A stretch of DNA of 33,538 nt from Paracoccaceae bacterium (lineage in GTDB: Bacteria > Pseudomonadota > Alphaproteobacteria > Rhodobacterales > Rhodobacteraceae): NCBI GenBank assembly GCA_021741465.1, contig JAIOXV010000015.1:1-33538 (forward strand), given 5' to 3'. The notes under the pieces are model-generated. The model made no database searches, was not told the origin of the DNA, and worked only from the letters and a program-made list of their open reading frames with translations. Below, in pieces: positions 4,571-32,589 of this stretch. Positions within the stretch are counted from its first letter, which is position 1; each line of letters begins with the position of its first letter. A program made the position numbers and the translations under genes.

Positions 4571-5802
4571 CCACCGAGATTTCCCCAGTCTATGGCGTGC
4601 ATTCCGAAGCGGGCAAGCTGCGCCGGGTGATGGTTCACAAACCCGGTGCGGCCATGGCGCGGCTGACGCCCGCGAATTGCGCCGAGCTGCTGTTTGATGA
4701 TGTGATCTGGGTCAAACAAGCGCGGATCGAGCATATGACCTTTGTCGATGCGATGCGGAACCGCGGCATCGAGGTGGTGTTCCTGCGGCAACTGCTGACC
4801 GAAACGCTGAAAGACAGAAACGCCCGCAGATGGCTGCTGGAGGCACGGATCCGCGATGATACCGTGGGGGTCGGTCTGGCCGTTGATCTTATGGCCCACC
4901 TGATGGAGGTCGACGCCGATCTGTTGTCAACCATCCTGATCGGCGGGATGAGCCGGGCCGAACTGCCCATCGCGCCAAAAGGCGTGCTGGCCCCAATGCT
5001 GGAACCTGCCGATTTCATCCTGCCGCCCCTGCCCAACCATATCTTCACCCGCGACACGACCTGCTGGATTTACGGCGGCGTCACGCTGAACCCGATGCAT
5101 TGGCCGGCCCGGCGGCTGGAAACGCTGAACCTTGCCGCGATCTATCGCTTTCATCCCGATTTCAAGGATGCAGGCTTTCCCATCTGGTGGGGCGGTACGA
5201 TGCAAGATCATGGCCCAGCAACGGTGGAGGGCGGCGATGTCATGCCCATCGGAAACGGCACGGTGCTGATCGGCATGGGAGAGCGCACCACAGCGCAAGC
5301 CGTGGGCCAGATCGCCCGCGGCCTGTTCGCCGGGGGTGGCGCGACCCGGGTCATCGCCTGTCAGTTTCCCCGCGCCCGCGGGTCGATGCATCTGGACACG
5401 GTCTTCACCTTTTGCGACCGCGATCTGGTCACCGTCTTTGCCGAAGTGACCGATGCCATCCGCTGCTACAGCCTGCGCCCCGGCCAGGGGATGGACATTG
5501 TAACAGAAGCCGAAACCAAACCATTTCTTGAGGTGGTCACAGAGGCGCTTGGCCTGAAGAAACTGCGCACCGTGCCAACGGGGGGCGATGCCTATGAGGC
5601 CGCACGCGAACAATGGGATGACGCCAACAACCTGCTGTGCCTCGAGCCGGGCGTCGTCGTCGGATACGAACGCAACGTCTTTTCCAACACCCTTTTGCGC
5701 AAGGCTGGCGTCGAAGTCATCACCATCCCGGGATCGGAACTTGGTCGTGGGCGGGGCGGGTCGCATTGCATGACCTGCCCGCTGATCCGCGATCCAATTT
5801 AA
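4567..5802 (+). CDS. arcA: Arginine deiminase
   Basis: 411 aa; [33 protein letters not shown] and C-terminal [23 protein letters not shown] with catalytic Cys; overlaps the upstream stop. Confidence 0.95.
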
Positions 5803-5812
5803 GGAATACCCT

Positions 5813-6814
5813 ATGCCTCAGAACCTTCGCGGCCGCTCTTTCTTGAAGCTTTTCGACTTTTCAGCAGACGAAATCTGGCAGTTTTTGCAATTGGCCATCA
5901 GCCTGAAAATGGCCAAGAAGGGCGGTTATGAGATAGCTCAGCTTGATGGCAAGAACATTGCGCTGATCTTCGAAAAAGACAGCACGCGCACGCGCAGCGG
6001 CTTCGAAGTAGCGGCCCATGACCAAGGCGCGCATGTAACCTATCTTGGACCCTCGGGCAGCCATATCGGCCATAAGGAATCCATCAAGGACACTGCCCGA
6101 GTTTTGGGGCGTTTTTTTGACGGGATCGAATATCGCGGCTATGGCCAAGAGGATGCCGAGGTGCTGGCAAAGTTTTCCGGCGTGCCGGTGTTCAATGGGT
6201 TGACCGATGCTTTCCACCCCACGCAGATCTTGGCCGATCTGATGACGATGCGGGAATCTTCCCAAAAAGCCCTGTCAGAGATTGCCGTTTGTTTCATGGG
6301 CGATGTCGGCAATAACACGGCAACATCGCTGATGGTGGGGGCGGCGTTGATGGGCATGGATATACGCCTTTGCGGGCCGCACCAATGCTGGCCGGATGAG
6401 GCGACGGTCACCCGCTGCCGCGCAATCGCCGAAACATCGGGCGCGCGCATCACCCTGACCGAAAAGCACGCCGAAGCGCTGGAAGGGGCCGACTTTGTCT
6501 ATACCGATGTCTGGGTGTCGATGGGCGAAGCTGACGCGGTCTGGGAAGAGCGTATTGCGCTTCTGTCGCCCTATCAGGTGACCGCCAAGGTGATGGGGAT
6601 GACGGGAAACCCACGTGCCAAGTTCCTGCATTGCCTGCCCGCCTTTCACAACCGCGACACACAGGTCGGCGAGGAAACGTTTCAGAAATTCGGCATTGAT
6701 TGCATGGAAGTAACCGATGAGGTTTTCGAAAGCCCCGCCTCGATTGTCTTCGAACAGGCCGAGAACCGGATGCACACGATCAAGGCGGTTCTTGTTGCCA
6801 CGATGGGGCCTTGA
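5813..6814 (+). CDS. arcB: Ornithine carbamoyltransferase (catabolic, ADI pathway)
   Basis: 333 aa; [50 protein letters not shown]. Confidence 0.95.
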
Positions 6815-6815
6815 G

Positions 6816-7832
6816 ATGCGTATTGTGGTTGCCTTGGGCGGGAACGCGCTGTTGCAGCGTGGAGAGCCGATGACAGCGCAGGCGCAGCACACGAATGTGC
6901 GCATTGCAGCCGTCGCGCTGGCCGATCTGGCGCGCGATCACCAGATCGTCGTGGCCCATGGCAACGGCCCGCAGGTTGGTCTTTTGGCGTTGCAAGGGGC
7001 TGCCTATGACCCCGATGCGCCATGGCCGCTGGATGTGTTGGGCGCAGAAACCGAAGGCATGATCGGCTATCTGATCGAACAAGAGCTGATGAACGCCCTG
7101 CCCGAAGGCGCGCATTGCGCCACCTTGCTGAGCCGGGTGGAGGTGGACCCAAAGGATCCGGCCTTTGAAAACCCGACAAAGCCCATCGGGCCGGTCTATA
7201 CCTCGGCCGAGGCCACGCTGGCGGTGCGCGATCATGGCTGGACAATGGGCACCGAGGCATCCGGCGGCAGCCGTCGGGTGGTGCCATCGCCGCGGCCGCT
7301 GCGGATCATCGGGCTGGACGCGATCAAGGTGCTTTTGCAGGCGGGCCACACGGTGATCTGCGCGGGCGGGGGCGGCATTCCCGTCATGCGCAACGCCGCG
7401 GGCAAGATGACAGGTGTCGAAGCGGTGATCGACAAGGATCGCACCGCCGCCCTTTTGGCGCTTGGCCTTCAGGCGGATGCGCTCTTGCTTTTGACCGACG
7501 TGTCCTCGGTCTTTCGCCATTTCGGTCATGAGGATCAAATTGCCATCACGGCCGCAACCCCCAAGACCTTTGATGATCTGGATCTGGCCGCAGGGTCCAT
7601 GGCCCCCAAGGTTGGCGCTGCGATCACTTTCGTCAAGACCAGCGGAAAGCTTGCCGGCATCGGCCGTTTGACCGACGCCCGCGCGATCCTTGAGGGCCGG
7701 GCCGGAACCCGCATCTTGCCCGAGGCCGCGACAAGCCGCCCGCGCAAGAACCATCCGCCAAAAACTTTCGGATTCACCGGGGCGGACCAATCTGTATCAG
7801 TCTGGCTCGATGATGGGGGTGCCATAGTCTGA
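6816..7832 (+). CDS. arcC: Carbamate kinase
   Basis: MRIVVALGGNALLQRGEPMTAQAQ...VVAHGNGPQVGLLALQ...VICAGGGGIPV...EAVIDKDRTAALLA. ATG at 6816 preferred over the 6717 ORF start, which lies inside arcB. Confidence 0.95.
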   Translation: MRIVVALGGNALLQRGEPMTAQAQHTNVRIAAVALADLARDHQIVVAHGNGPQVGLLALQGAAYDPDAPWPLDVLGAETEGMIGYLIEQELMNALPEGAHCATLLSRVEVDPKDPAFENPTKPIGPVYTSAEATLAVRDHGWTMGTEASGGSRRVVPSPRPLRIIGLDAIKVLLQAGHTVICAGGGGIPVMRNAAGKMTGVEAVIDKDRTAALLALGLQADALLLLTDVSSVFRHFGHEDQIAITAATPKTFDDLDLAAGSMAPKVGAAITFVKTSGKLAGIGRLTDARAILEGRAGTRILPEAATSRPRKNHPPKTFGFTGADQSVSVWLDDGGAIV

Positions 7833-14400: not shown

Positions 14401-14486
14401 AGGACTTCCAAAAGCAGCAGTAAGGAAGGTTGTTCCAAAAGTCAAAGCAGCATTTGGTGCATCAACCATCCGAGGGAGGATCGTCC

Positions 14487-15734
14487 GTGACCACTACCAG
14501 CATTCCGCCACAGCTGCATATTCCTGAAACCTTGGCCGCAGGGCCGGGCCCCGGCAATACCGATGCCCGGGTTCTTGCAGCTTATGCCAACGCCGGCCTT
14601 GCCGATCACATGCAGGCCGACGTGCTGCGCGGGATGATCGAATGCAAAGAGATGCTCCGCAAGATCTGGGGCACCAAGAACACCTACACCTTCGGCGTTG
14701 CCGGAACCGGCTGGAGCGGGCTGGACTGCCTGTTCAGCGCCATTTTGCCCGGCGATACGGTGGTGACCTTTGTCAACGGCACCTTCAGCGGCATTGATGC
14801 GCTGACCGTCCGGATGAAAGCCGCCAGCCGCGCCGATCTGGCCGCCAATTCGATGGACCCGAAACCGGCGAACGTGACCCTTGTCACCGTGCCGCACGGC
14901 CAATCGGTGACGGGCGATGTGATTGACGCCGCGCTTGCCGCCAACAAACCCACCTGGGCCGTCATGGCGCATTGGGAAACCGGTTCGGGCCGGATTAACG
15001 ACATTCGCGCCTTTTCGGATGCTTGTGAGCGTCACGGGGTGATGGGCCTTGTCGATGCGGTCTCGTCCTTGGGGATCGAGGATTTTGACATTGATGATTA
15101 CCCCGGCATCGTCGGCTGGGCGTCTTGCCCGCAAAAAGGCGTGCTGTGCCTGCCCTTGACCTATGCTCCGGTCAGCTTTTCGGACCGCTACATCGCGCAT
15201 CTGAAAGCCAATGGCTCTTCCAGCTATGTGAACCACCCGATGATGGAGGCCCGGCATTGGGCGATCCACGACGGCAAGGACAGCGCCGCTGGCACCTATC
15301 ACCGCACTCATTCGGGCTATGCCGTCGCCGCCTTCCATGAGGCGCTGCGGATCAACCTTCAGCACGGCAAAGCGCAAAAGGCCGCGGACTACGCCTATCA
15401 CGAGGCAGCCCTGCGCGCCGCCGTCGTCGCCCTTGGCTGCGATGTCACCTCGAACATGACCAGCCTTGTGGTCTTGAACCTGCCCGCCAAGCTGGCTGGT
15501 CGTGAAAAGGATCTGGTGCAGGCCTGCCGGGCGCGCGGTTTCGGCATCTGGCCGACCCTGTCCGAACCGGTTCAGGTGCGCATCGGCATCCTGAACCAGC
15601 TTTCCCGCCATGCCATCAGTGACATCGTTGAGCGCTTTGCCGCCGCGATGAACGAAATGGGCGCGGGGGCCGATGTCGGCGCGGCGCGGGAGGCGCTGAA
15701 CCGGCATTACCTTGCAGAGATGGCAGCCGAGTAA
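14487..15734 (+). CDS. Class V PLP aminotransferase, candidate serine-glyoxylate aminotransferase (divergent)
   Basis: 415 aa from GTG with gagggagga RBS; LAAGPGPGNTDARV, GVAGTGWSGLDCLFSAILPGD, LVDAVSSLG, ASCPQKGVLCLP (PLP Lys); serine-cycle context. Confidence 0.75.
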   Translation: MTTTSIPPQLHIPETLAAGPGPGNTDARVLAAYANAGLADHMQADVLRGMIECKEMLRKIWGTKNTYTFGVAGTGWSGLDCLFSAILPGDTVVTFVNGTFSGIDALTVRMKAASRADLAANSMDPKPANVTLVTVPHGQSVTGDVIDAALAANKPTWAVMAHWETGSGRINDIRAFSDACERHGVMGLVDAVSSLGIEDFDIDDYPGIVGWASCPQKGVLCLPLTYAPVSFSDRYIAHLKANGSSSYVNHPMMEARHWAIHDGKDSAAGTYHRTHSGYAVAAFHEALRINLQHGKAQKAADYAYHEAALRAAVVALGCDVTSNMTSLVVLNLPAKLAGREKDLVQACRARGFGIWPTLSEPVQVRIGILNQLSRHAISDIVERFAAAMNEMGAGADVGAAREALNRHYLAEMAAE

Positions 15735-15816
15735 ACGCGGCCTGCGCGGCAGAGATGGCAGCCGAGTAAACGCGGCCTGCGGGGCGGAAATGTCAGCCGG
15801 GTAAACTCGGCCTGAG
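15714..15816. repeat. Three tandem copies of a 33-bp element (35-bp period) between the aminotransferase and mtkA
   Basis: GCAGAGATGGCAGCCGAGTAAACGCGGCCTGCG at 15714 and 15749 (identical), GCGGAAATGTCAGCCGGGTAAACTCGGCCTGAG at 15784; copy 1 includes the aminotransferase stop codon. Confidence 0.95.
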
Positions 15817-15826
15817 GGAGGAAAGA

Positions 15827-17023
15827 ATGGATATTCACGAATATCAGGCCAAAGAGATATTGGCGAAGTTCGGCGTGGCGGTTCCTCCTGGGGGGCTGGC
15901 CTATAGCCCCGAACAGGCGGCCTACCGTGCACGCGAGCTGGGCGGAAATCGCTGGATCGTAAAGGCGCAGGTTCATGCAGGCGGGCGCGGCAAAGCCGGC
16001 GGCGTGAAGCTGTGCAATTCCGAGCATGAGATTCAGGATGCCACCAACGACATGTTCGGCCAAAAGCTGGTGACGCATCAGACCGGCGCCGAAGGCAAGG
16101 GAATCTACCGCGTTTACGTCGAAAGCGCGGTAGACTTTAACCGCGAGATCTATCTGGGCTTTGTGCTGGACCGTTCAACCCAGCGCATCATGATTGTCGC
16201 CTCTTCGGAAGGCGGCATGGAGATCGAAGAAATCTCGTCGCAACGGCCCGACTCGATCGTGCGTTCGACCGTGGAACCTGCGGTTGGTCTGCAAGAGTTT
16301 CAGGCCCGCGAAATTTCCTATGCCCTTGGCATCCCCACCGCGCTAACCCAGCAAATGGTGCGCACGCTGCAAGGCTGCTACCGCGCCTTCCGCGATCTGG
16401 ATGCCACGATGGTGGAAATCAACCCGCTGGTCATCACCGCCGACAACCGCATTCTTGCGCTTGATGCCAAGATGACCTTCGACACCAACGCGCTTTTCCG
16501 TCACCCGCAGGTGGCCGAGCTGCGCGACAAATCGCAAGAAGACCCGCGCGAAAGCCGCGCGGCTGACCGGGGGCTGGCCTATATCGGCCTGTCCGGCAAC
16601 ATCGGCTGCATCGTGAACGGTGCGGGCCTTGCCATGGCCACGATGGACACCATCAAACTTGCCGGGGGCGAGCCTGCGAACTTCCTCGACATCGGCGGCG
16701 GTGCCACGCCAGAGCGTGTGGCCAAGGCGTTTCGTCTGGTGATGTCGGATGAGAATGTCGAAGCCATTCTCGTGAACATCTTCGCGGGCATCAACCGCTG
16801 TGACTGGGTGGCAGAAGGCGTGGTTCAGGCGCTGACGGCAAACCCGGTGAATGTGCCCGTGATCGTGCGCCTGTCGGGCACCAATGTTGAAGAAGGTCAG
16901 AAGATCCTTGCCAAATCGGGGCTGCCAATCATTCGCGCCAACACCCTGATGGAGGCGGCCGAACGCGCCGTCATCGCCTGGAAGAACGACCGCAAGCAGA
17001 ACACCACCGTGAGGGCCATCTGA
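15827..17023 (+). CDS. mtkA: Malate-CoA ligase beta subunit (SucC-like)
   Basis: 398 aa; [26 protein letters not shown]-grasp, [18 protein letters not shown]; adjacent to malyl-CoA lyase and serine-cycle genes, favouring mtkA over sucC. Confidence 0.88.
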
Positions 17024-17916
17024 TGAGCATCCTTCTTGATCGCGCCAGCCGTGTCATCGTGCAAGGCATCACCGGCCGCATGGCCCAGTTCCACACCAAG
17101 GAAATGCTGGATTACGGCACCAATGTTGTCGGTGGCGTTGTTCCCGGCAAGGGCGGGGAAACCGTGTTCGGCATTCCGGTCTTCGATACGGTGAAACAGG
17201 CTGTGGCCGCGACCGGGGCCGACACCAGCCTTGTGTTCGTGCCGCCCCCCTTTGCGGCCGACAGCATCATGGAAGCCGCCGATGCGGGCATCCGCTATTG
17301 CGTCTGCATCACCGACGGCATTCCGGCGCAGGACATGATCTTGGTCAAGCGCTATATGATGCGCTACCCGCGCGAGCGGCGCATGGTGCTGACCGGCCCG
17401 AATTGCGCCGGCACCATCAGCCCCGGCAAGGCGCTGCTTGGCATCATGCCCGGCCATATCTATCTGCCCGGCAATGTCGGCATTGTCAGCCGCTCTGGCA
17501 CCTTGGGATATGAGGCGGCCCAGCAGTTGAAAGACCGCGGCATCGGCGTGTCCACCAGCGTTGGCATCGGGGGCGATCCGATCAACGGTTCCAGCTTCCG
17601 TGATATTCTGGAACGGTTCGAAGCCGATCCCGACACCCATGTGATCTGCATGATCGGCGAAATCGGTGGCCCGCAAGAGGCCGAAGCTGCCGCTTACATT
17701 CAGGAACACATGACCAAACCGGTCATCGCCTATATCGCGGGTCTGACAGCCCCCAAGGGCCGCACGATGGGCCATGCCGGGGCGATCATTTCGGCCTTTG
17801 GCGAAAGCGCTTCGGAAAAGGTGGAAATCCTGTCCGATGCGGGTGTCACCGTTGCTGAAAACCCCTCGGTCATCGGCGAGACGGTCGCGCGCGTGATCGC
17901 CAAGCGCGCAGCCTGA
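17023..17916 (+). CDS. mtkB: Malate-CoA ligase alpha subunit (SucD-like)
   Basis: 297 aa; [57 protein letters not shown] (active-site His). Confidence 0.88.
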
Positions 17917-17924
17917 CGGAGGGC

Positions 17925-18899
17925 ATGATGGCAAAACCCAAGGTCCTTGTGACGCGGCGCTGGCCGCAGGCGGTGGAAGCGAAGATGGCGCAGGTCTTTG
18001 ATCTGAGCTTGAACACCTCTGACACCCCGCTGAGCGAGGCGGATTTTCACGGTGCGCTGGGTCAGTATGATGCGATCCTGCCCACAGTGACCGACCGCCT
18101 GCCTGCCGCAGTCTTTGATTGCAGCACGCCGCGCACAAGGATCTTGGCCAATTACGGTGTGGGCTTTGCCCATATCGACACCGCCGCCGCAAAAGACCGC
18201 GGTATCGCGGTGACCAATACGCCCGACGTGGTGTCCGAATGCACCGCCGATATCGCCATGACCTTGATCCTGATGGTGGCGCGCCGTGCTGGCGAAGGTG
18301 AGCGCGAGTTGCGTGCCGGCCAATGGACAGGTTGGCGCCCGACGCACATGATCGGCACCAAGGTATCGGGTGCGACGCTGGGCATCATTGGCTTTGGCCG
18401 GATCGGCCAAGCCATGGCGCAGCGCGCGCATTTCGGCTTTGGCATGAAGACCATCGTGCAAAACCGCTCGGCCGTGCCGGCCGAGGTGTTGGCGCGCTAC
18501 AACGCAGTTCAGGTGCCGACAGTCGAAGACCTGCTGCCGCAATGCGATTTTGTGTCGCTGCACTGCCCCGGCGGCGCAACCAACCGCCATCTTATCAACG
18601 CGCGTCGACTGGATCTGATGCGGCCGGGCGCGTTTCTTATCAACACCGCGCGCGGCGAAGTGGTGGACGAACATGCGCTGGCCCAGGCGCTGTGGTTTGG
18701 TACCATTGGTGGCGCGGGGCTTGATGTGTTTGAACGCGAGCCGAAGATTCCGGCCGAGCTTTTGGAGTCTGACAATCTGGTTCTCTTGCCGCATCTGGGG
18801 TCTGCCACCCGCGAAACCCGCGAGGCGATGGGCTTTCGTGTGCTGGAAAACCTGTCAGACTTTTTCGATGGCCGCCAACCGCGCGACCGGGTCGCCTGA
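17925..18899 (+). CDS. hprA: D-2-hydroxyacid dehydrogenase, likely hydroxypyruvate/glyoxylate reductase
   Basis: 324 aa; GATLGIIGFGRIGQAMAQRA NAD site, NTARGEVVDE, LPHLGSAT; position in serine-cycle operon. Confidence 0.82.
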   Translation: MMAKPKVLVTRRWPQAVEAKMAQVFDLSLNTSDTPLSEADFHGALGQYDAILPTVTDRLPAAVFDCSTPRTRILANYGVGFAHIDTAAAKDRGIAVTNTPDVVSECTADIAMTLILMVARRAGEGERELRAGQWTGWRPTHMIGTKVSGATLGIIGFGRIGQAMAQRAHFGFGMKTIVQNRSAVPAEVLARYNAVQVPTVEDLLPQCDFVSLHCPGGATNRHLINARRLDLMRPGAFLINTARGEVVDEHALAQALWFGTIGGAGLDVFEREPKIPAELLESDNLVLLPHLGSATRETREAMGFRVLENLSDFFDGRQPRDRVA

Positions 18900-18902
18900 C
18901 CC

Positions 18903-21578
<2,676 letters not shown>

Positions 21579-21595
21579 ACAGAGGACATTATCCC

Positions 21596-22894
21596 ATGAA
21601 CATCTCTACCAACATGACCACCGGTTTCTTCACCGAAAGCCTTTCCACCCGTGACCCCGAGATTTTCGGTGCTGTGACGCAAGAGCTTGGCCGTCAGCGC
21701 CATGAGATCGAGCTGATTGCCTCGGAAAACATCGTGTCGCGCGCCGTGATGGAGGCGCAGGGTTCGGTGATGACCAACAAATACGCCGAAGGCTATGCCG
21801 GAAAGCGCTATTACGGTGGCTGCCAGTTTGTCGACATCGCCGAAACGCTGGCGATGGAGCGGGCCTGCAAGCTGTTCAACTGCAGTTTTGCCAATGTGCA
21901 GCCCAACTCGGGGTCGCAGGCCAACCAGGGCGTGTTTCAGGCGCTGATCCAGCCCGGCGACACGATTTTGGGCATGAGCCTTGATGCTGGCGGCCACCTG
22001 ACCCATGGTGCCGCGCCGAACCAGTCGGGCAAATGGTTCAACGCCATTCAGTATGGCGTGCGCCCGCAGGACAGCCAGCTCGACTATGACCAGCTTGCCG
22101 CCCTTGCCACCGAGCACAAGCCCAAGCTCATCATCGCCGGCGGCTCGGCCATTCCGCGCATCATCGATTTTGCCCGCATGCGCGAGATTGCCGACAGCGT
22201 TGGCGCCTATCTTCTGGTCGACATGGCCCACTTTGCCGGGCTGATTGCGGCCGGGCTTTACCCCAGCCCCTTCCCGCATGCCCATGTGGCGACCACCACC
22301 ACCCACAAAACCCTGCGCGGCCCGCGCGGTGGCATGATCCTGACCAATGATGAGGCGATTGCCAAAAAGGTCAACTCGGCGATTTTCCCCGGCATTCAGG
22401 GCGGCCCCTTGATGCATGTGATCGCGGCCAAGGCGGTGGCCTTTGGCGAAGCGCTGCGGCCTGACTTCAAGGATTATCAGGTTCAGGTGGTGAAGAACGC
22501 CCAGGCGCTGGCAGCTCAGCTGATGAAGGGTGGCTTGGATATCGTGACCGGGGGCACCGACACGCACCTGATGCTGGTTGATTTGCGCCCCAAGTGCGTG
22601 AAGGGCAATGCCACCGAAAAGGCCCTTGGCCGTGCCCATATCACCTGCAACAAGAACGGCATCCCGTTTGATTCCGAAAAGCCGACCGTCACTTCGGGTG
22701 TGCGTCTTGGCACCCCTGCGGGCACCACCCGCGGCTTTGCCGAAGCCGAGTTCCGTCTGATCGGGGACTGGATTGTCGAAGTGGTCGACGGTCTGGCCAA
22801 GAACGGCGAAGACGGCAATGGCGCGGTTGAAGCCGCCGTCAAAGCCAAGGTCGAGGCGCTGTGCGAGCGTTTCCCGATCTATCCGACGCTGTAA
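21596..22894 (+). CDS. glyA: Serine hydroxymethyltransferase
   Basis: [46 protein letters not shown] and [20 protein letters not shown] 21596 preferred over the 21566 ORF start because ppc ends at 21578. Confidence 0.97.
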
Positions 22895-22985: not shown

Positions 22986-24590
22986 TTACGCCTGCCAGAC
23001 GGGATTTCCCTTGAACAGCGTCAGCAAGACGCGGGTGGCGGAAATCTCTTGTGGCGGGCAGGTAAAGATATCGCGGTCCAGCATGATAAGGTCGGCGGAA
23101 AAACCGGGGCGCAATTGCCCGGTATAGCCCGCCCGCCAGACCGCCCGCGCCGCGTGGGTGGTATAGCCTGCAACGCATTCTGCGATGGTCAACGCCTGAT
23201 CGGCGTAAAACGGCGGCTTTGGCTGGTCAATCATGCGGGCCTGCCGGGTGATCGCGGTTTGCATGATTTCAAACGGGTTGAGCGTGCTGACCGACCAATC
23301 CGACGACAGGCACCAATCTGCCCCGGCATTCAACATCTTGCGAAACGCATAGGTGTCGGGGTGCCTTTCGGGGCCGATCATGTCCAAGGCGATATCGGGG
23401 ATTTCAGGGTCTAGCTGGGCCCAAAGCGGCTGAATATTGGCGGTGGCAAGCTGCGCAAGCCGGACATGATCGGCCGGATCAGTCAGTTGCAGATGGGTCA
23501 GTTGGTGCTGGGCCGGCCAGGGGCCATTTGCTGCGCGGGCGGCTTGCAGCCCATCCAGCGCCCGCCGGGCGGCGGCATCTCCGATGACATGCACATGAAT
23601 GGCAAAACGCGCCGCATCCAGCGCGGTGAAAAGGGCGTTCGTCTGATCGGCGCTGAACATGCAGGCCGCATTGCCGGGCTGATCGGCATAGTCTGCCAGC
23701 AAGGCGGCAGTGCGGTTTTCAAAGATGCCATCCATGAAGAACTTGGCAGACTGGATGTGGAAATCCGGCCCATGATGGGCCGCGCGCAGGGCAGAAAGCC
23801 GGGCCACAGCCGATGCGGGCGTATCGGCTTCGGTCACCTGCACCGCCCCCGCCACCCGCAAGCTGAGCCGCCCTGCCGCCGCAGCCCGGCCATAGACTTC
23901 GGCATCTTCTGCCGTGACCTTGGGGTCAAGCACGCCGGTCAGGCCATGGGCATTGGCATGGGCCTGCCCGGTCGCAAGCCCTTCGGTCAGATGGTTGGCG
24001 TCAAGCTGCGGCAGGCGGGCGTTGGCCCAGCCGATTGCCTCTTCATGCAGCATGCCCGTGGCCCTGCCGGCACCATCGCGCAGGATGTGGCCGTTCGGTG
24101 GGTCTGGGGTGTCATCCGTAATTCCGGCAATCGCCAAGGCGCGGCTGTTCAGGCAGGCGTTGTGAAAGCTGCTGTCATAGGCCAGCGCGGGCCGATCTGC
24201 GATTGCCCTGTCCAACACGGCCGCTGTTAGATTGTGGTCACCAAAAAGACCGGGCTGCCAACCCGATCCGGTGACCAGCCCCAGGTCAGGCCGCTTGGCG
24301 GCATGGGCGGCCATCGCGGCAATCAGGCATTCGATGTTTGGCACATCGTAAAGCTGCGCCGAGGTTGCAAGTTCGGTGCCCCCGGAAAGCAGGTGAATAT
24401 GGGCATCCTGAAAGCCGGGCAGCACCAGATTGCCATGCGCGTTGATCCGGCGGGTCTTTTTGGCCACGGCAGGCGGGGTGCCAAGGCCAAGCGCAGCAAT
24501 CAGGCCATCGCGGATCAACAGCCAATCGGCATGGGGGTGGGTCGGGTCCATGCTGCGGATCTTGGCATTGTAGACAAGGGTTTCAGACAT
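22986..24590 (-). CDS. Amidohydrolase family 3 (YtcJ-like metal-dependent hydrolase)
   Basis: 534 aa; LVLPGFQDAHIHLLSGG, KFFMDGIFENRTAALL, IHVHVIGDAAARRALDGLQ, LSSDWSVSTLNPF, GQLRPGFSADLIMLDRDIF. Confidence 0.85.
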   Translation of the reverse strand: MSETLVYNAKIRSMDPTHPHADWLLIRDGLIAALGLGTPPAVAKKTRRINAHGNLVLPGFQDAHIHLLSGGTELATSAQLYDVPNIECLIAAMAAHAAKRPDLGLVTGSGWQPGLFGDHNLTAAVLDRAIADRPALAYDSSFHNACLNSRALAIAGITDDTPDPPNGHILRDGAGRATGMLHEEAIGWANARLPQLDANHLTEGLATGQAHANAHGLTGVLDPKVTAEDAEVYGRAAAAGRLSLRVAGAVQVTEADTPASAVARLSALRAAHHGPDFHIQSAKFFMDGIFENRTAALLADYADQPGNAACMFSADQTNALFTALDAARFAIHVHVIGDAAARRALDGLQAARAANGPWPAQHQLTHLQLTDPADHVRLAQLATANIQPLWAQLDPEIPDIALDMIGPERHPDTYAFRKMLNAGADWCLSSDWSVSTLNPFEIMQTAITRQARMIDQPKPPFYADQALTIAECVAGYTTHAARAVWRAGYTGQLRPGFSADLIMLDRDIFTCPPQEISATRVLLTLFKGNPVWQA

Positions 24591-25434
24591 GCTGATCTTG
24601 CTCCAGATCGGCCCAATCCGCGGCGGGGATGATGCGGGCGGGCAGGTCAGCGGCTTGCGCCCGGTAAATCAACGCCAAGAAAGGCACCCGGCCGGTTTGG
24701 GCCAAAAGGGGGCGGTCAGGCGCAAGCCAGACCGGGGAGGGTGCCGCTTTTGTCGTAAGGTTACGCGCCGGGCCAAAGCGCCAACGCTGCGGCCCCGTCA
24801 GCGGCGCGTAAAGCGTGGCCCCAAGGTGACGATGATCGCGCAAGAGTTGGCCGGGGGCAATCAGCAAAAGGCCAAATGCACTGGCTTTGTCATCGCCGCC
24901 TACGAGCGGTGCATAGGCATGGTTGGCCGCAAGCTGTGCGCCGAAATCCTGCCCGGTAAAGGCGGGATGGTGGGTCCAGCGCAGTTGTGGCGCGGCGGTG
25001 GCAATGGCATCCGACAGCACGGTCTGCGCCAAAGCCATGGCGTGACGCGCCGCGTCAAGCCACTGCGCGGCCACGGCCTGCGCTGCGGCATCTTCTGCCA
25101 CCGGCGGGGCAGCCCGCCTTGGCGCGAGGGGCAGTGCCGCCCGCAACTCTGCCGCGCCGGGATGGTCCAGCGCCAAAAGATGCACCCGCGCGGCTCGGTA
25201 AAGCCTTGCCAATGGCAACAGCTCTGCGGCTTTCCAGCCGGGGGTGGGCAAGCCGCGTTCGGCCAACATCGGTGCGGGGTCGCGCCCGTCATGGGCGGCG
25301 GCGATGCGGTAAACTTCAAGCTGGGCTTCCGAGATCTGCCCGTCGCGCCACAATGCCATTGCCGCACCATAGCGCACCCGCCCAGAGCCGGCTTGGCCAA
25401 TCGGGCAGGCAAGATGCTCGAACGCGTCAATCAT
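24583..25434 (-). CDS. DMSP-lyase-like (DddQ/DddL-type) cupin protein, metal site apparently degenerate
   Basis: 283 aa from MIDAFEHL; LRWTHHPAF...NHAYAPLVGGDDKASAFGLLLIAPGQLLRDHRHLGATLYAPLTGPQRWRFG...LLAQTGRVPFLALIYRAQ resembles the DMSP-lyase cupin layout; overlaps neighbours at both ends. Confidence 0.55.
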   Translation of the reverse strand: MIDAFEHLACPIGQAGSGRVRYGAAMALWRDGQISEAQLEVYRIAAAHDGRDPAPMLAERGLPTPGWKAAELLPLARLYRAARVHLLALDHPGAAELRAALPLAPRRAAPPVAEDAAAQAVAAQWLDAARHAMALAQTVLSDAIATAAPQLRWTHHPAFTGQDFGAQLAANHAYAPLVGGDDKASAFGLLLIAPGQLLRDHRHLGATLYAPLTGPQRWRFGPARNLTTKAAPSPVWLAPDRPLLAQTGRVPFLALIYRAQAADLPARIIPAADWADLEQDQHV

Positions 25435-26266
25435 TGGTGCGGTAGGCCAACCGGCTGTCCGCAAGGCGGCGCTTTTCGCTGCGCATCATCAAGACCCCGG
25501 CGGGGACGACTCCCAGCCCCACAACAAGCACCATCAGCGTTGCCAGTGCATTGATATCGGGGGTCACGCCAAGCTTGACCTTGGACCAGATCAGCAACGG
25601 CAGGGTGGTCGATCCAGGCCCGGTGGTGAAAGAGGTGATGACCACATCATCAAGCGAAATGGTGAAGGCCAAAAGCCAGCCTGAAAGAATGGCAGGAAAG
25701 ATCGTCGGCAGTGTCACATCCAGCATCACCTGCCAGGGCCGACTGCCCAGATCCATCGCCGCCTCTTCAATCGCGCGATCAGATTGCACCATGCGCGCCT
25801 GAATGATGGTGGTCACGAAGACCATGGAAAACGTGATATGCGCCAGCGTGATGGTGGTGAACCCGCGCGCACCTGGCCAGCCGATCCAATCGGCCATCAT
25901 GATAAAGAAGATCAGCGATGAAATGCCGGTGATCACCTCGGGCATCACCAGCGGGGCCGTAACAAGGCCGGAAAACAGCAAGCGGCCGCGAAAGCGGGTA
26001 AAGCGGGCCAAGACAATGCCCGCCATGGTGCCCAAGATCGTGGCGAAGGTTGCCGACACCACGGCGATCTTAAGCGACAGCAGCAACGCCGCGATCACTT
26101 GTTTGTTCGAAAACAGCGAAACATACCATTTGGTGGAAAATCCGCCCCAGACCGTTGCCAAGCGCGAAGCGTTGAAACTGTAGACGATCATCGACAGGAT
26201 CGGGATATAGAAAAACGCGAAGCCAAAGCACAGCACGGTTATCAAGAACACGGGGCGTCGGTTCAT
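25427..26266 (-). CDS. Spermidine/putrescine-type ABC transporter permease (PotC-like)
   Basis: 279 aa from MNRRPVFLITVLCFGFAFFYIPILSMIVYSFN; EEAAMDLGSRPWQVMLDVTLPTIFPAILSGWLLAF (EAA loop). Confidence 0.9.
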   Translation of the reverse strand: MNRRPVFLITVLCFGFAFFYIPILSMIVYSFNASRLATVWGGFSTKWYVSLFSNKQVIAALLLSLKIAVVSATFATILGTMAGIVLARFTRFRGRLLFSGLVTAPLVMPEVITGISSLIFFIMMADWIGWPGARGFTTITLAHITFSMVFVTTIIQARMVQSDRAIEEAAMDLGSRPWQVMLDVTLPTIFPAILSGWLLAFTISLDDVVITSFTTGPGSTTLPLLIWSKVKLGVTPDINALATLMVLVVGLGVVPAGVLMMRSEKRRLADSRLAYRTND

Positions 26267-27177
26267 TTCGTGCCCTCCGCCCGGGCCTGATAATGGCTGT
26301 AAAGCATGGTCGGCCCGACCATCAGCACCAACAGCACCACCGCCACCGCCGAGGCCATGGGCCAATCGCGTGCCGAAGAAAACTCATCCGAAATCAGCCG
26401 CCCGATCATCGGCGATGAGGCATCCCCAACCAGCGAAGGAATGACCAATTCGCCCGCCGCCGGGATGAACACCAGCATGCCCCCCGCAATGATGCCGGGA
26501 ACCGATTGGGGCAGCGTGACATCGCGAAACACCTGCCAGGGACGGCTGCCAAGATCCATCGCGGCCTCGTCCAGCACCGGGTCCAGCCGCTCAAGGCTGG
26601 CGTACAAGGGCAAGATCATGAAGGGCAGGTAGGTGTAGACCATCACCAGCACCACCGCGAAATTCGAGTTCATCATCGGAATGGATTTCACGGCCCAATC
26701 CATTGGCACCAAAAGGTTCCATCCATCGGTCAAAAGCCCGTTGAACCACGAGTTTTTGCCCATCAATCCCATCCAGGCATAAACCCGCAGCAGAAAAGAG
26801 GTCCAAAAGGGCAGGATCACCAGCATCAGAAGGATGTTGCGCCAGCTTTTCGAAACGCGCGTCAGCCCCAGCGCCATCGGATAGCCAAGCAGCAGGCACA
26901 GCATCATCGCCACACCGGCATTGCCAACCGAGGTCAGAAAAGCGCGCAGATAAAGCCCATCGGTCAGAACCCGCACATAGGCCTGTCCGTTCACCCAAGG
27001 ATGATCGCCACCAAAGGAAAAAGGCGGGGCGGTGGGGGTTTTGGTGGCAAGGCTCATCGCCACCACGATCAGAAAGGGCAAAAGGAACAGGGCCAAAAGC
27101 CACAGATAGGGCAGGCCGATCAGCATGGCGGCAAAGCCGCGGCGGTCGAACCATTGTGAAATGCGCCCCATTGCCAT
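26263..27177 (-). CDS. Spermidine/putrescine-type ABC transporter permease (PotB-like)
   Basis: 304 aa; multiple TM helices; DEAAMDLGSRPWQVFRDVTLPQSVPGIIAGGMLVFIPAAGE; ATGA overlap with the PotC-like gene. Confidence 0.92.
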   Translation of the reverse strand: MAMGRISQWFDRRGFAAMLIGLPYLWLLALFLLPFLIVVAMSLATKTPTAPPFSFGGDHPWVNGQAYVRVLTDGLYLRAFLTSVGNAGVAMMLCLLLGYPMALGLTRVSKSWRNILLMLVILPFWTSFLLRVYAWMGLMGKNSWFNGLLTDGWNLLVPMDWAVKSIPMMNSNFAVVLVMVYTYLPFMILPLYASLERLDPVLDEAAMDLGSRPWQVFRDVTLPQSVPGIIAGGMLVFIPAAGELVIPSLVGDASSPMIGRLISDEFSSARDWPMASAVAVVLLVLMVGPTMLYSHYQARAEGTK

Positions 27178-28281
27178 TCATTCCACCAGAACAATTGCCG
27201 ATGTCGCGTCAAAGGCCAGCCAAACCTCGTCATCCCAATCGGCGACGCGGGCGCCTTCATCGCCACGACGGGCGTTCACGGCATGGGCCTGCACCAGCAC
27301 CCCAGAGGGCAGGGCGATCCGGTAAAGGCTGTCTTTGCCGAAATAGGCCAGATCGCGAACCTTGCCTTGCACGGCGTTGCCATCAGCGGGTTTTTCCATC
27401 GAAAGGCGCAGCTTTTCGGGGCGTATGGCCAAGGTAACCTTGCTGCCCTCCGCCACCCCCGATTGGCCGCGCGCCAGAACCTCGGTCCCAAGGGCAGGCA
27501 CCGACAGGCGCAGCAGCCCAGCTTCGACGCCAAGAACAGCCGCGTCGAATGCGTTGATCGAGCCGATGAAATCGGCAACGAACCGGCTGGCGGGAAATTC
27601 ATAAATCTCGGTCGGACTGCCGATCTGCTTGACCTCGCCCTTGTCCATCACCGCGATGCGGTCGGAAAGCGTCATCGCTTCTTCCTGATCGTGGGTCACA
27701 ACGATGAAGGTCACCCCGGTGCGGGCCTGAATGCTCATCAATTCGAACTGGGTCTGTTCGCGCAGTTTCTTGTCCAGTGCTGCAAGTGGTTCGTCCAGAA
27801 GCAACAGCTTTGGCTGGCGCGCCAGCGCACGGGCCAGCGCGACGCGTTGGCGCTGACCGCCAGAGATCTGATGCGGCTTGCGCGCCGCAAAGGGCACCAG
27901 TTGCACCAGTTCCAGCATCTCCCGGGTGCGGTCGGCCTTTTCGGCCTTGGTCAGGGCTTCGTGTTTCAGCCCATAGGCGATGTTCTTTTCCACGCTCATG
28001 TGGGGAAAGATTGCGTAGGACTGAAACATCATATGCACCGGGCGCTCCCATGCAGGAACGCCCGCCATGTCGCGGCCATCCAGAAAGATGCGCCCGGCGC
28101 TTGGTTCTTCAAACCCCGCAAGCATTCGCAAGAGCGTGGTCTTGCCGCAGCCAGACCCCCCCAAGAGCGAGAAGATCTCGCCCTTGCCGACCGAAAGGGA
28201 TACATTGCGCACGGCCTGAAAGCTGCCGAATGTTTTCGATACCCCTTCGATGCGCAAGAACGGCTCGGCCGCGTCCTGCAT
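27178..28281 (-). CDS. Spermidine/putrescine-type ABC transporter ATP-binding protein (PotA-like)
   Basis: 367 aa; Walker A GGSGCGKTT, signature ISGGQRQRVALARAL, Walker B LLLLDEPLAALDKKLR, C-terminal TOBE-like domain. Confidence 0.95.
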   Translation of the reverse strand: MQDAAEPFLRIEGVSKTFGSFQAVRNVSLSVGKGEIFSLLGGSGCGKTTLLRMLAGFEEPSAGRIFLDGRDMAGVPAWERPVHMMFQSYAIFPHMSVEKNIAYGLKHEALTKAEKADRTREMLELVQLVPFAARKPHQISGGQRQRVALARALARQPKLLLLDEPLAALDKKLREQTQFELMSIQARTGVTFIVVTHDQEEAMTLSDRIAVMDKGEVKQIGSPTEIYEFPASRFVADFIGSINAFDAAVLGVEAGLLRLSVPALGTEVLARGQSGVAEGSKVTLAIRPEKLRLSMEKPADGNAVQGKVRDLAYFGKDSLYRIALPSGVLVQAHAVNARRGDEGARVADWDDEVWLAFDATSAIVLVE

Positions 28282-28284
28282 GGC

Positions 28285-29388
28285 TTAGCCGCCCGCCTTG
28301 ATCTCGGTCCAGACGCGGGTCATCGCCTCTTCCTGTTCCGGGCTTTGGGGTTTGGGTGTGTAAAGCCGTGCCAGAGATTCGGCATCAGGATAGACCGCAG
28401 GGTCCGAACTGATCGACGGATCCACCAGCGGTGTCGCTGCGCTGTTGGCATTGGCATAGCCGGTGTAATTGGTGCAGGCTGCAATCACTTCGGGGCGCAG
28501 AAGATAGTCAATAAAGCGGTGCGCTGCGTCGACATTGGCCGCGTCCGTCGGAATGGCCCACATGTCGAACCAGGCGGGGGCCCCGGTTTTGGGCACGAAA
28601 TAGCCAAGGTTCATTTCGATCCCGGCCTCAGCGGCGCGGGCCTTGGCAACGCCGTAGTCGCCCGACCAGCTGTTCACCGCGCAGACCTCGCCATTGGGGA
28701 TGGTGGTCAGATAGTTGGTGTTGTCGAAGGTCGCGACATAGGGGCGTATGGCGGCAAAAGCCTCTGCCATCTTGGCAAGCTCTGCCGGGCCAGCGGTATC
28801 AGGGTCGATCCCCAACCATTTCAGCACGACAAAGCCGATGTCAGTGGGGCTGTCCAAAAGCGAGATCCCGCAGTCGGCCAGTTTGGCCGCATTTTCCGGC
28901 AGGAACAACGTGTCAAGGCTGGCCAGATCGGCGTCGGGCAGACGCTCTTTCACCATGTCGATGTTGTAGGTCACCCCGACAGACCCCCACATGTAAGGCG
29001 TGCCATAGGCGTTGGCGGGGTCAAAGCCTTCGACGATTTTCAGGATCGACGGGTCAAGGTTCGACCAGCCTGTCATCTTTGAACGGTCGGGTTTTTGATA
29101 AACCCCGGCCTTGGTCATGGTTGGGAAGGTCAGCCCGGCCTGCAATACAACGTCATAGCCCGATGACCCGGCCAGCATCTTTGCCTGCATCTCTTCCGCG
29201 CTTGCATAAAGGTCGTAAACCACATCAATGCCGGTTTCGGCGCTGAAATCGGCAACGGTTGTCTCGCCGATATAATCGGCCCAGTTATAGACATTCACCC
29301 TGCCGCTTTGCGCCCACGAGGGACGAACCCACGGGGCTGCCAGCGTGCTGCCAATTCCGACAAGCATATGACGGCGGTTCACTCTCAT
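28285..29388 (-). CDS. Spermidine/putrescine-type ABC transporter substrate-binding protein (PotD/PotF-like)
   Basis: 367 aa; Tat-like signal MRVNRRHMLVGIGSTLAAPWVRPSWA; VNVYNWADYIGETTVADFSAETGIDVVYDLYASAEEMQAKMLAGSSGYDVV. Confidence 0.93.
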   Translation of the reverse strand: MRVNRRHMLVGIGSTLAAPWVRPSWAQSGRVNVYNWADYIGETTVADFSAETGIDVVYDLYASAEEMQAKMLAGSSGYDVVLQAGLTFPTMTKAGVYQKPDRSKMTGWSNLDPSILKIVEGFDPANAYGTPYMWGSVGVTYNIDMVKERLPDADLASLDTLFLPENAAKLADCGISLLDSPTDIGFVVLKWLGIDPDTAGPAELAKMAEAFAAIRPYVATFDNTNYLTTIPNGEVCAVNSWSGDYGVAKARAAEAGIEMNLGYFVPKTGAPAWFDMWAIPTDAANVDAAHRFIDYLLRPEVIAACTNYTGYANANSAATPLVDPSISSDPAVYPDAESLARLYTPKPQSPEQEEAMTRVWTEIKAGG

Positions 29389-29430
29389 GTCGTTCTCCCT
29401 GTTATCGTTGGTATCAAATTATCCAAAAGC

Positions 29431-30648
29431 TTAAGCCCGGACCCCGGTCTGGCAAGTCAATTCTTCATTGACGCGGGCGATCTGGTCCTCTGGTGGGGCG
29501 TCTGGCAGGGCCATCACAGGCATCAACGCGCGCAATCCGTCGTGATGGCGCCGCAGGCCAAATTCCAGATCCGACAGATGGAACCCCTCGAAAGCTGAAG
29601 ATTTCATCGACTCGTTCGACCAGACCGAAAGCTGCTGATCTTCGGCCGATGTGTCGCGATCGATGCGATATGCCAGATAGCGCGCGACCCGTGCCTCGCG
29701 GCTTTCGTTCGGCCTGCGGTAAAGGCGTCCGGTCAAGCGGGTCTTGCCCGGCGAAATCGGCAGTTCCTGATAAAACTGCGCGCCCTCCGGTGTCATGGCA
29801 AAGACCGCATTGGGAAACAGCCCGTAATAGGTCCAGGCCTTTTGAAGATGCGGGGGCAGATCAGGCCGGGGCGGGGACAGAGCGGCATAGTTGCGCACCG
29901 ACCAAAGCCGCCCCGGCACATCCCCGAACCAGCCGATCGACACGTTCAGCCCATCATCAAGATGCAAGTCGCGGTATGTGCGGCCATAAAGGTCTTGCAG
30001 GCCAGGATGGGCCAGCGGGACGTGATAGCCTTCGTTGTCCACATCGCGCACCGACTTCCAGTTGACCGGCAGATCAGAGGCCCAGTGCGGAATGGTCACG
30101 GGCAGCAGCGAGGTAAGATCATAGGCCGCAAAATCTGCTTCATAGGGGGCGAAAAGCGTGGCGACGTCGGGCTGCGGGCCGGGGGCAAACCGCAAAAAGA
30201 AAAAGCCGTGATAGACCTGCATTTCGATCGGTTTCAGCGCGAAATCCTCGCGCTTCATATCGCCAAGGCTGCTGGGCTGGGCCGCCCCCCGCAGGGTGCC
30301 ATCCAGATTATAGACCCAGCCGTGAAATGGGCAAACGATAGACCCTTTGCAGGTGCCATTCTCCCCATCGACCACCCGCGCCCCACGATGGCGGCACAGG
30401 TTGTGAAAAGCCCGGGCCACCCCGTCGGCACCGCGCATGACAACCGCGCGTTCGCCCAAAAGGTCAAAGCTCAGCCAATCGCCGGGATTGGGAATATCGC
30501 ATTCATGCCCGACGACCTGCCAATGGGTCAGGAACAGTTTTTCCCGCTCCAGTGCGAACATGGCCTCGGAATGATAGGTCCAGGCTGGCAACCCGCCCCG
30601 GTCCCAGTCATTCGGGATTGTCATGCTGGCATAGGGAAGTTCGGTCAT
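29431..30648 (-). CDS. Rieske non-heme iron oxygenase alpha subunit (GbcA-like)
   Basis: 405 aa from MTELPYASM (ATGA overlap with upstream gene); Rieske CRHRGARVVDGENGTCKGSIVCPFHGW; Fe site DVDNEGYHVPLAHPGL. Confidence 0.9.
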   Translation of the reverse strand: MTELPYASMTIPNDWDRGGLPAWTYHSEAMFALEREKLFLTHWQVVGHECDIPNPGDWLSFDLLGERAVVMRGADGVARAFHNLCRHRGARVVDGENGTCKGSIVCPFHGWVYNLDGTLRGAAQPSSLGDMKREDFALKPIEMQVYHGFFFLRFAPGPQPDVATLFAPYEADFAAYDLTSLLPVTIPHWASDLPVNWKSVRDVDNEGYHVPLAHPGLQDLYGRTYRDLHLDDGLNVSIGWFGDVPGRLWSVRNYAALSPPRPDLPPHLQKAWTYYGLFPNAVFAMTPEGAQFYQELPISPGKTRLTGRLYRRPNESREARVARYLAYRIDRDTSAEDQQLSVWSNESMKSSAFEGFHLSDLEFGLRRHHDGLRALMPVMALPDAPPEDQIARVNEELTCQTGVRA

Positions 30649-31817
30649 GCAGTTGCCTCCATCTCGGCAAGGATCCACTGGTGAAAGCGGTGTATTTCAT
30701 ATTCTTCGGGCATCAGTCGCGCTTGGGTGAAGGCAGGCGATCTTAGGCCGCGCTGGTTCATCTCTGACGCTGCGCCGTCCTGTTCCATAACCAGCTTGGC
30801 AAAAGCGGCCACTGCGCCTGCATCAAATCCGGGCTGGGCCAGGGTGTCGGGCGGGAAATGCCATTCTGCGATCAGCCGGGTGCGTTGTGGGGCCAGTGGC
30901 ACAATCCGGACCGACCGCACGTAATCGACATGCGCCACCACATAGGCCGAGGGCCAAAGCGTGACAAAGCTATAGCCGGCCTGCCGCTCTGCCGCAGTAA
31001 GGCCGGGGAATGTCGGGCCGCAGGGGGCGCCATTGGCTGTCCAGCTTTGGGCACCCTTTCGTAGGTTTGGCTCTGCCGGATCTTCGGGCGACCAGTCCAA
31101 GGCCTCGCTTTGGCCCATGATACCTTTGCCATAAATCGGCACCATGTCGCACAGTTCGGGGTGAATGCCGGGGCAATGCAGGCATTCAGAATAGTTTTCC
31201 CAAAAGGCCTTCCAGTTGCAGGCAATGTCGGTTTGCCAGCGATGACCCGTCTCCAGCCCCGCCATTGGCCAGTTCGCCAGACTGTCCAGCCCGACATCAG
31301 CCCAAAGGGGGCCGGGATTGGCCGACAGGTTCAAAAACAAGAACCCGTTCCAATCGCGCAGGCTGACAGGTTTCAGCCCCATTGCCTTGCGGTCAAGATC
31401 GGCTGTCGGCACCGCGTGGGCGGTCGATACCAGCCGGCCATCCGCAGCCGAATAGGCAAAGGCGTGATAGGGGCAGCGGATCAGTTTGCCGATCTGTTCT
31501 TCATCGGCGCGGCACAGTTCAGACCCGCGGTGTGGGCAGGAATTGTGAAAGGCCGAAAGCGTGCCTTCGCTGTCGCACGCCACAATCACCTCGGCGGCGC
31601 CAACCACCGCGCGGCGCAGGGTGCCGGGCGAAAATTCGCGCCGTCGGCCAACCATTACCCATTGGCGTGCAAAAATCGTCGCCATTTCGCGGCGGTACCA
31701 ATCGTCGCCCAGAAACGCGTCGCGGGGCAGGCCGGGGGGGCAATGGTCCAGCCGGGGCGAAGCCGGGTGGCGCCGCCCTTCGTGGCTTTCGGCGGGGGAA
31801 ATTTCTTCTCGTCCCAT
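30645..31817 (-). CDS. Rieske non-heme iron oxygenase alpha subunit (GbcA-like)
   Basis: 390 aa; Rieske CPHRGSELCRADEEQIGKLIRCPYHAF; NWKAFWENYSECLHCPGIHPEL Fe-site motif. Confidence 0.9.
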   Translation of the reverse strand: MGREEISPAESHEGRRHPASPRLDHCPPGLPRDAFLGDDWYRREMATIFARQWVMVGRRREFSPGTLRRAVVGAAEVIVACDSEGTLSAFHNSCPHRGSELCRADEEQIGKLIRCPYHAFAYSAADGRLVSTAHAVPTADLDRKAMGLKPVSLRDWNGFLFLNLSANPGPLWADVGLDSLANWPMAGLETGHRWQTDIACNWKAFWENYSECLHCPGIHPELCDMVPIYGKGIMGQSEALDWSPEDPAEPNLRKGAQSWTANGAPCGPTFPGLTAAERQAGYSFVTLWPSAYVVAHVDYVRSVRIVPLAPQRTRLIAEWHFPPDTLAQPGFDAGAVAAFAKLVMEQDGAASEMNQRGLRSPAFTQARLMPEEYEIHRFHQWILAEMEATA

Positions 31818-31826
31818 CGGGGGTCC

Positions 31827-31879
31827 ATTGACAATCGGGGTGAAGCGCAGGGTTGCATTCCACTGACTGAATTGTCAAT
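31827..31879. promoter_or_regulatory. Two TetR-type operator-like palindromes
   Basis: ATTGACAAT (31827-31835) and ATTGTCAAT (31871-31879), each a perfect odd palindrome, 44 bp apart, between divergent Rieske and TetR genes. Confidence 0.65.
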
Positions 31880-31947
31880 CAGAGATTCCGCTTTGCCAAT
31901 TTTGCGATCCGCGCTAAAATAAAAGGCCAAGAAACCTGAGATGCGCC

Positions 31948-32589
31948 GTGCCCCAAATCGCCTCCGCTAACCCCCCTCCTCCGCGCACCCAAAGCCGCGA
32001 TGCGCGCCGGTTGCAGATCATCGAGGCGACGATCGCCACGCTGGCCGAAAAGGGGTTTTCGCGCATGACCTTGACTGCGGTTGCACAGCGCGCGGGGCTA
32101 AGCCATGGCTTGGTGCTGTTTCATTTCGGCACCAAGGACAACCTTCTGGCCGAAACGTTGGACTATCTTTCAGAAGAATATCGCGCCAATTGGCAAGCAG
32201 CCCTGCAGCTGGCCGACAACCGCCCTGAAACCCGCATCGCTGCGCTTGTGCGTGCCGATTTTTCGCCTGATCTTTGCACGCCAGAGCGTCAGGCCGCATG
32301 GCTGGCCTTTTGGTCCGAGGCACAAAGCCTGCCGTTGTATCAGGCGCGCTGTGCGGCGAATGATGCCGAATACAGCCGCATGCTGGAAGGGCTTTGCGCC
32401 CAGATGAACGCCCTTCACGGCTATGACCTGCCGCCCGTGCGCGCGGCGCGGCTGGTACGGATCATGATCGACGGGGTCTGGCTGGACCAGATGACATTGC
32501 AAGCGCCTTATGATCTGGATGAGGCGCTAAACACCGTTTTGACAGGGCTTGGCGCGCTTTATCCCCGGCATTTCGGGCCGAATGCCTGA
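31948..32589 (+). CDS. TetR-family regulator, BetI-like
   Basis: 213 aa; RRLQIIEATIATLAEKGFSRMTLTAVAQRAGLSHGLVLFHFGTKDNLLAETL HTH; C-terminal AWLAFWSEAQ...VRIMIDGVWLDQMT typical of BetI-like proteins. Confidence 0.88.
   Translation: MPQIASANPPPPRTQSRDARRLQIIEATIATLAEKGFSRMTLTAVAQRAGLSHGLVLFHFGTKDNLLAETLDYLSEEYRANWQAALQLADNRPETRIAALVRADFSPDLCTPERQAAWLAFWSEAQSLPLYQARCAANDAEYSRMLEGLCAQMNALHGYDLPPVRAARLVRIMIDGVWLDQMTLQAPYDLDEALNTVLTGLGALYPRHFGPNA

Follow-up and report, generated by a model that had tools for sequence, protein, structure and literature searches.

A DMSP-lyase-like cupin, probably dead or repurposed, fused to a Rieske-linked domain in a Paracoccaceae operon

Gene order and setting of the operon

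The window, by which we mean the whole 33,538-nucleotide stretch of Paracoccaceae DNA analysed here, carries between positions 22986 and 32589 an operon with two Rieske oxygenases (RieA and RieB), a polyamine-type importer, a two-domain protein and an amidohydrolase. The features discussed below are as follows.

22986..24590, minus strand: amidohydrolase (Amidohydro_3; PF07969, 269 bits)
24583..25434, minus strand: two-domain protein CDS, 283 aa (ATG at 25434, stop at 24585-24583, open frame)
24622..25092, minus strand: DMSP-lyase-like cupin, residues 115-271 (PF16867 and AlphaFold2 model)
24691..24711, minus strand: PLLAQTG, with Leu243 replacing a ligand His (DddQ His163; His in 87/87 relatives)
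24808..24834, minus strand: HRHLGATLY, with Thr207 replacing a ligand Glu (DddQ Glu129; Glu in 89/89 relatives)
24841..24843, minus strand: Leu198 replacing a conserved Tyr (DddQ Tyr120; Tyr in 86/89 relatives)
25231..25434, minus strand: N-terminal helical domain, residues 1-68 (stand-alone homologs of 63-85 aa beside RieB or PotI)
25427..26260, minus strand: PotI-like permease (326.8 bits with the NCBIfam PotI model, short of its equivalog cut-off; order kept in relatives)
26263..27177, minus strand: PotH-like permease
27178..28281, minus strand: PotG-like ABC ATPase (ABC_tran and TOBE_2)
28285..29388, minus strand: substrate-binding protein (SBP) of PotF/SpuD/SpuE type (3ttm, E 1.2e-97; PotF 7oyv, E 9.5e-95)
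29431..30648, minus strand: RieB Rieske oxygenase, nearest structure carnitine monooxygenase (6y9c, E 1.2e-30)
30645..31817, minus strand: RieA Rieske oxygenase (3vca, E 1.8e-37)
31948..32589, plus strand: divergent BetI-type TetR regulator (TetR_C_6; BetI model 120 bits, cut-off 201)

The interval 24583-25434, in which a preliminary description had placed a DMSP-lyase-like cupin, is exactly one CDS. Its start overlaps the stop of the PotI-like permease by 8 nt, its stop overlaps the amidohydrolase start by 8 nt, and homologs at the equivalent operon position are 38-53% identical. The order RieA, RieB, SBP, PotG, PotH, PotI, N-domain/cupin is conserved in about 100 loci of Rhodobacterales and some Rhizobiales, often with the amidohydrolase next. 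The window protein takes its place among the two-domain proteins of these Rieske operons, its N-domain and cupin lying between PotI and the amidohydrolase with RieA and RieB upstream.

We take RieA and RieB to belong to the Rieske enzymes acting on quaternary amines; the nearest structures to RieA are 3vca/3vcp (listed as a ring-hydroxylating dioxygenase) and the demethylase 4qup. The operon looks like one for the breakdown of methylated amines. Genes for a GcvT-type demethylase and an FAD protein, present nearby in about half of the loci, are absent from the window. A literature search found no published description of the operon at 22986-32589; this widespread uncharacterised operon, together with the family of about 70 residues to which the N-terminal domain belongs, is amenable to genetics in cultured strains, e.g., Fuscovulum blasticum DSM 2131.

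Beside the operon, at 14430-22894, the window also carries serine-cycle genes (an aminotransferase, mtkA/mtkB malate thiokinase, a hydroxypyruvate reductase-like protein, a PEP carboxylase-like protein, assigned by sequence, and glyA), whose proximity would fit assimilation of released C1 units. Malate thiokinase genes also lie near the operon in L088 and L084 (Aestuariivirga and a relative). Further away, at 3119-7832, are genes of the arginine deiminase pathway, namely a DcuC-type carrier, arginine deiminase, ornithine carbamoyltransferase and a member of the amino-acid kinase family.

Fold and active-site residues of the cupin

The C-terminal half had been described from the sequence as a DddQ/DddL-like cupin, an assignment with which Pfam, Foldseek and profile alignment all agree. 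In the HMM search that the preliminary description had proposed, PF16867 (DMSP_lyase) matched residues 121-224 at 29.1 bits, over the Pfam cut-off of 27; intact orthologs score 60-75 bits. The AlphaFold2 model, with a pLDDT of 88 (93.9 for the same-genus ortholog L028), finds DddQ structures as its best PDB matches in Foldseek (4b29, 5jsp and 4la3; TM normalised to the target up to 0.74), and DddQ likewise comes first in the PDB for the L028 model. The alignment behind the window model included intact relatives, and the model thus indicates that the sequence is compatible with a cupin fold rather than that the protein actually folds. With the single sequence, phmmer gave no match in the PDB, whereas the profile of relatives did; similarly, a contig scan with the window protein alone returned 0 relatives, compared with 299 for an alignment query. 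We also considered a paralog from a different subfamily and rejected it, as the tree nests the window cupin among intact orthologs with support of 97/86, its exact placement there being unsure owing to its long branch.

We set the residue register by aligning a profile of 16 intact orthologs to DddQ, taking the DddQ active-site residues and the DddW numbering from PMC4437653. This confirmed the ligand positions of the preliminary description, which had been aligned by eye. In the intact orthologs, YRDHHHPAPELY aligns on DddQ Tyr120, His123, His125, Glu129 and Tyr131, and the later PH on His163; the motif of the relatives is Y-R-D-H-x-H-x-A-P-E-L-Y, with the later His within PHxTKVG. The window reads LRDHRHLGATLY and PLLAQTG instead, giving Tyr120 to Leu, Glu129 to Thr and His163 to Leu in DddQ numbering. 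Over its full length, the motif YRDHxHxAPELYAPLTGP...PHxTKVG of the two-domain proteins is replaced by LRDHRHLGATLYAPLTGP...PLLAQTG. The two missing metal ligands that the preliminary description had pointed out, the Glu in HRHLGATLY (24834-24808) and the His in PLLAQTG (24711-24691), are therefore indeed gone, and the loss of Tyr120, which it had missed, comes in addition. Of the His/His/Glu/His metal site of cupin DMSP lyases only the first two His are kept (His201 and His203, equivalent to DddQ His123 and His125), and of the catalytic pair Tyr120 and Tyr131 only the latter, as Tyr209, with Leu198 standing for the former.

We compared 89 further distinct homologs: every one has the Glu and the equivalent of His203, and 86 have that of Tyr120. 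The later His is found in each of the 87 that extend far enough to include it. The ligand loss occurs in the window copy only among 90 distinct sequences, and the invariance of the Glu and the His, extending to the intact copy from the same genus, indicates that it is unique to the window lineage. Further changes near the pocket motifs (H232P, N237L and W258R) fall at positions that also vary in a few relatives, and L124 and L125 carry Arg at the first His. Three other relatives (L116, L138 and L143) have His or Cys at the Tyr120 position and Arg in place of Trp258 but retain the Glu and His ligands; they may form a subfamily that uses a different base.

The codons now found are ACG for the Glu, CTT for the His and TTG for the Tyr, each at least two bases from the ancestral-type codon, which together with the open frame makes sequencing error unlikely. 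An assembly error was rejected on the same two grounds and on the conserved blocks lying between the changes. The sequence comes from one MAG, 82% complete, in which no second intact copy was found, and it has no close relative in the same state. The same genome encodes three more PF16867 cupins (L001, L002 and L003), all with HxHxxxExY and the later His intact.

Comparison with known systems places these losses in context. DddQ (Ruegeria and others; PDB 4la2, 4la3, 5jsp, 4b29 and 5cu1), a cupin DMSP lyase, has the same fold including the preceding helices, and its register Y-x-x-H-x-H-x-x-x-E-x-Y plus later H aligns at about 20% identity to the window protein, which differs from it at the three positions above, by its extra N-terminal domain and by its Rieske/polyamine-type-importer operon. 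The DMSP-lyase-like cupin family of Lei et al. 2018 (cited in PMC8163506 and PMC6331615), which going by the title reportedly includes enzymes of unknown function, shares PF16867; the intact relatives considered here would belong to it, whereas the window copy is without the metal ligands. A PF16867 match does not equal a DMSP lyase, a warning for annotation. The intact orthologs (from Tabrizicola, Rhodobacter, Defluviimonas, Fuscovulum, Aestuariivirga and others; L006-L014, L028 and L071-L150) share domain order and operon with the window protein but keep the Glu in all cases and the later His wherever the sequence reaches it. DddK (Pelagibacter; PDB 5tfz and 6a53) shares the cupin barrel, and its scaffold also does C-N chemistry (PMC12582016); it is, in contrast, a single-domain marine DMSP lyase with a complete metal site.

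With two of the four ligands (Glu and His) and a catalytic Tyr lost, no metal/tyrosine beta-elimination of the DddQ, DddW or DddK type is expected from the window cupin. We therefore give next to no credence to an ordinary, active DMSP lyase: family and fold match, but the active site does not, and no acrylate-pathway genes (acuI, acuR) were recognised among the operon neighbours, where the TetR regulator scores 120 bits with the BetI model and 25 bits with AcuR. A reduced or alternative metal site, with which the cupin would still be an enzyme, could draw on the retained His201, His203 and Tyr209, yet we regard it as very unlikely, since Tyr120 is lost too and single Ala variants of the equivalent DddW ligands, E87A or H121A, lose both iron and activity (PMC4437653). 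Mutating four ligands of DddK together also abolishes its activity (PMC12582016). We searched for substitute ligands and rejected them: the barrel has gained neither a His nor a Glu, and the only new His residues, 155 and 156, precede the barrel strands in the predicted model.

The N-terminal domain and RieB

Residues 1-68 have no Pfam match and belong to a small-protein family without a name, with the pattern GSGRxRYxAAM...LEVYR...DP. Members also occur as stand-alone proteins, either directly behind RieB and ahead of a flavin amine oxidase (L203, L204, L205, L207 and L209) or behind PotI with the cupin absent (L039, L040, L041, L059 and L212). The N-domain is present in 27/397 genomes, 26 of which fall among the 29 with a RieB of at least 54% identity; in the remaining three of these 29, a short N-domain ORF adjoins RieB. 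Conversely, L069 and L070 have RieA without RieB and the cupin without the N-domain. This co-occurrence, together with L069 and L070, suggests that the N-domain follows RieB and that the cupin is an optional addition, dispensable in those genomes where the N-domain occurs without it. Both states are found in one genome of the same genus (G249), whose two operons carry an intact fusion (L058) and an N-domain alone (L059). In L069, two tandem cupin copies lie behind RieA, and the transporter, RieB and the N-domain are all absent.

An accessory role to the Rieske enzymes, as put forward in the preliminary description, is thus supported for the gene, given the synteny across about 100 loci, but it is the N-domain rather than the cupin that tracks RieB.

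Constraint on the two domains and the fate of the cupin

The two halves of the window protein have evolved very differently. In a leave-one-out comparison of 17 full-length sequences, the window protein has lost 0/13 invariant sites in the N-domain and 11/45 in the cupin, compared with 0-3 invariant cupin sites in each of the other sequences. On a single topology used for both domains, the cupin gives the window protein a terminal branch of 1.82, where the median is 0.23 and the next longest 0.65; with the N-domain the branch is 0.35 (median 0.24), and with five neighbouring operon proteins combined it is 0.22, rank 9/91. A codon model with one time shared by both domains gave an omega of about 0.44 for the window cupin against a background of 0.16, and of about 0.15 for its N-domain against 0.20. 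Relative to the free fit (lnL -12233.1), setting the cupin omega to 1 was about 6 units worse (best about -12238.9), the cupin at background gave about -12236.8 and both domains at background about -12248.0, about 15 units worse; with near-saturated synonymous sites and a coarse, bounded profile grid, these values are indications and not exact tests.

The hydrophobic core has been almost entirely retained: of 41 columns occupied by hydrophobic residues in the relatives, 39 are so in the window protein as well. In simulations of neutral drift starting from four extant relatives, neutrality of half the differences predicts 5.8-6.2 hydrophobic departures (P(<=2) = 0.02-0.045) and neutrality of all of them 11-13. 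The neutral share of the divergence is thus modest at most, which argues against an old pseudogene, although not against recently begun decay, and the fold seems, on sequence grounds, to be still under constraint.

The cupin half, in contrast to the seemingly intact remainder of the protein and of the operon, is probably dead or repurposed. We lean towards the former, with moderate confidence: a catalytically dead cupin attached to a living, Rieske-linked N-domain. The analysis itself shows the residue losses and their uniqueness, the domain-specific acceleration, the conserved core, the operon and the stand-alone N-domains. The N-terminal domain of about 68 residues, fused to a DMSP-lyase-like cupin, would work with a RieB-type Rieske oxygenase; the relatives' cupin, with its metal site complete, would be a metal-dependent eliminase or lyase in methylated-amine catabolism; and the window cupin would have lost metal and activity. 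The operon would be retained for import and Rieske demethylation and the gene for its N-domain, perhaps also for translational coupling to the amidohydrolase, while the cupin may persist as a still folded, catalytically dead passenger domain. The retained equivalents of His123, His125 and Tyr131 speak against a dead cupin, and the open frame and the 39/41 core columns, which a passenger need not keep for long, against a mere passenger.

A selected, non-catalytic role, to which the intact core lends support, is the main rival. The barrel, without its catalytic metal, could serve as a sensor, a scaffold or a regulatory domain that binds a pathway compound or a Rieske partner, its changes having been selected. 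Such repurposing agrees with the simulations, which disfavour neutrality for at least half of the differences (P of about 0.02-0.045), with the poorer fit of omega = 1 across the whole branch (about 6 lnL units) and with the physical tie of the gene to the Rieske enzymes. We nevertheless hold it to be improbable, though worth keeping in view, as relaxation gives the same pattern, the cupin is missing from other genomes with the same operon, and a single sequence cannot show a new conserved motif. In its more specific form, a selected pseudoenzyme whose metal-free binding or scaffold domain, together with the small N-domain, modulates or docks onto a quaternary-amine Rieske demethylase, the proposal seems to us similarly doubtful. 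The preliminary description had suggested a cupin repurposed for binding or sensing or with a different metal site: the latter lacks any replacement His or Glu in the barrel, and a non-metal binding role is no more than a possibility. A dead or relaxed domain explains the acceleration, the kept core and the normally evolving N-domain no less well.

Somewhat less probable still, in our estimation, is a cupin that is plainly decaying, a recent step towards the N-domain-only state of other genomes. The accelerated cupin and the lost active site are in line with this, as are the stand-alone N-domains in several lineages, one of them (L059) in the same genus; against it stand the lack of a stop or frameshift, the kept core and the disfavoured neutral share of at least half. 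The open frame could alternatively be kept by translational coupling to the next gene.

With intact and dead copies in one operon type and one genus, the locus offers a natural experiment in DMSP-lyase-like cupins in which the role of the metal site is testable. As for the intact orthologs, DddK adds amines to acrylate by aza-Michael addition (PMC12582016), and by analogy with this activity a role as C-N eliminase on an amine catabolite is at most conceivable.
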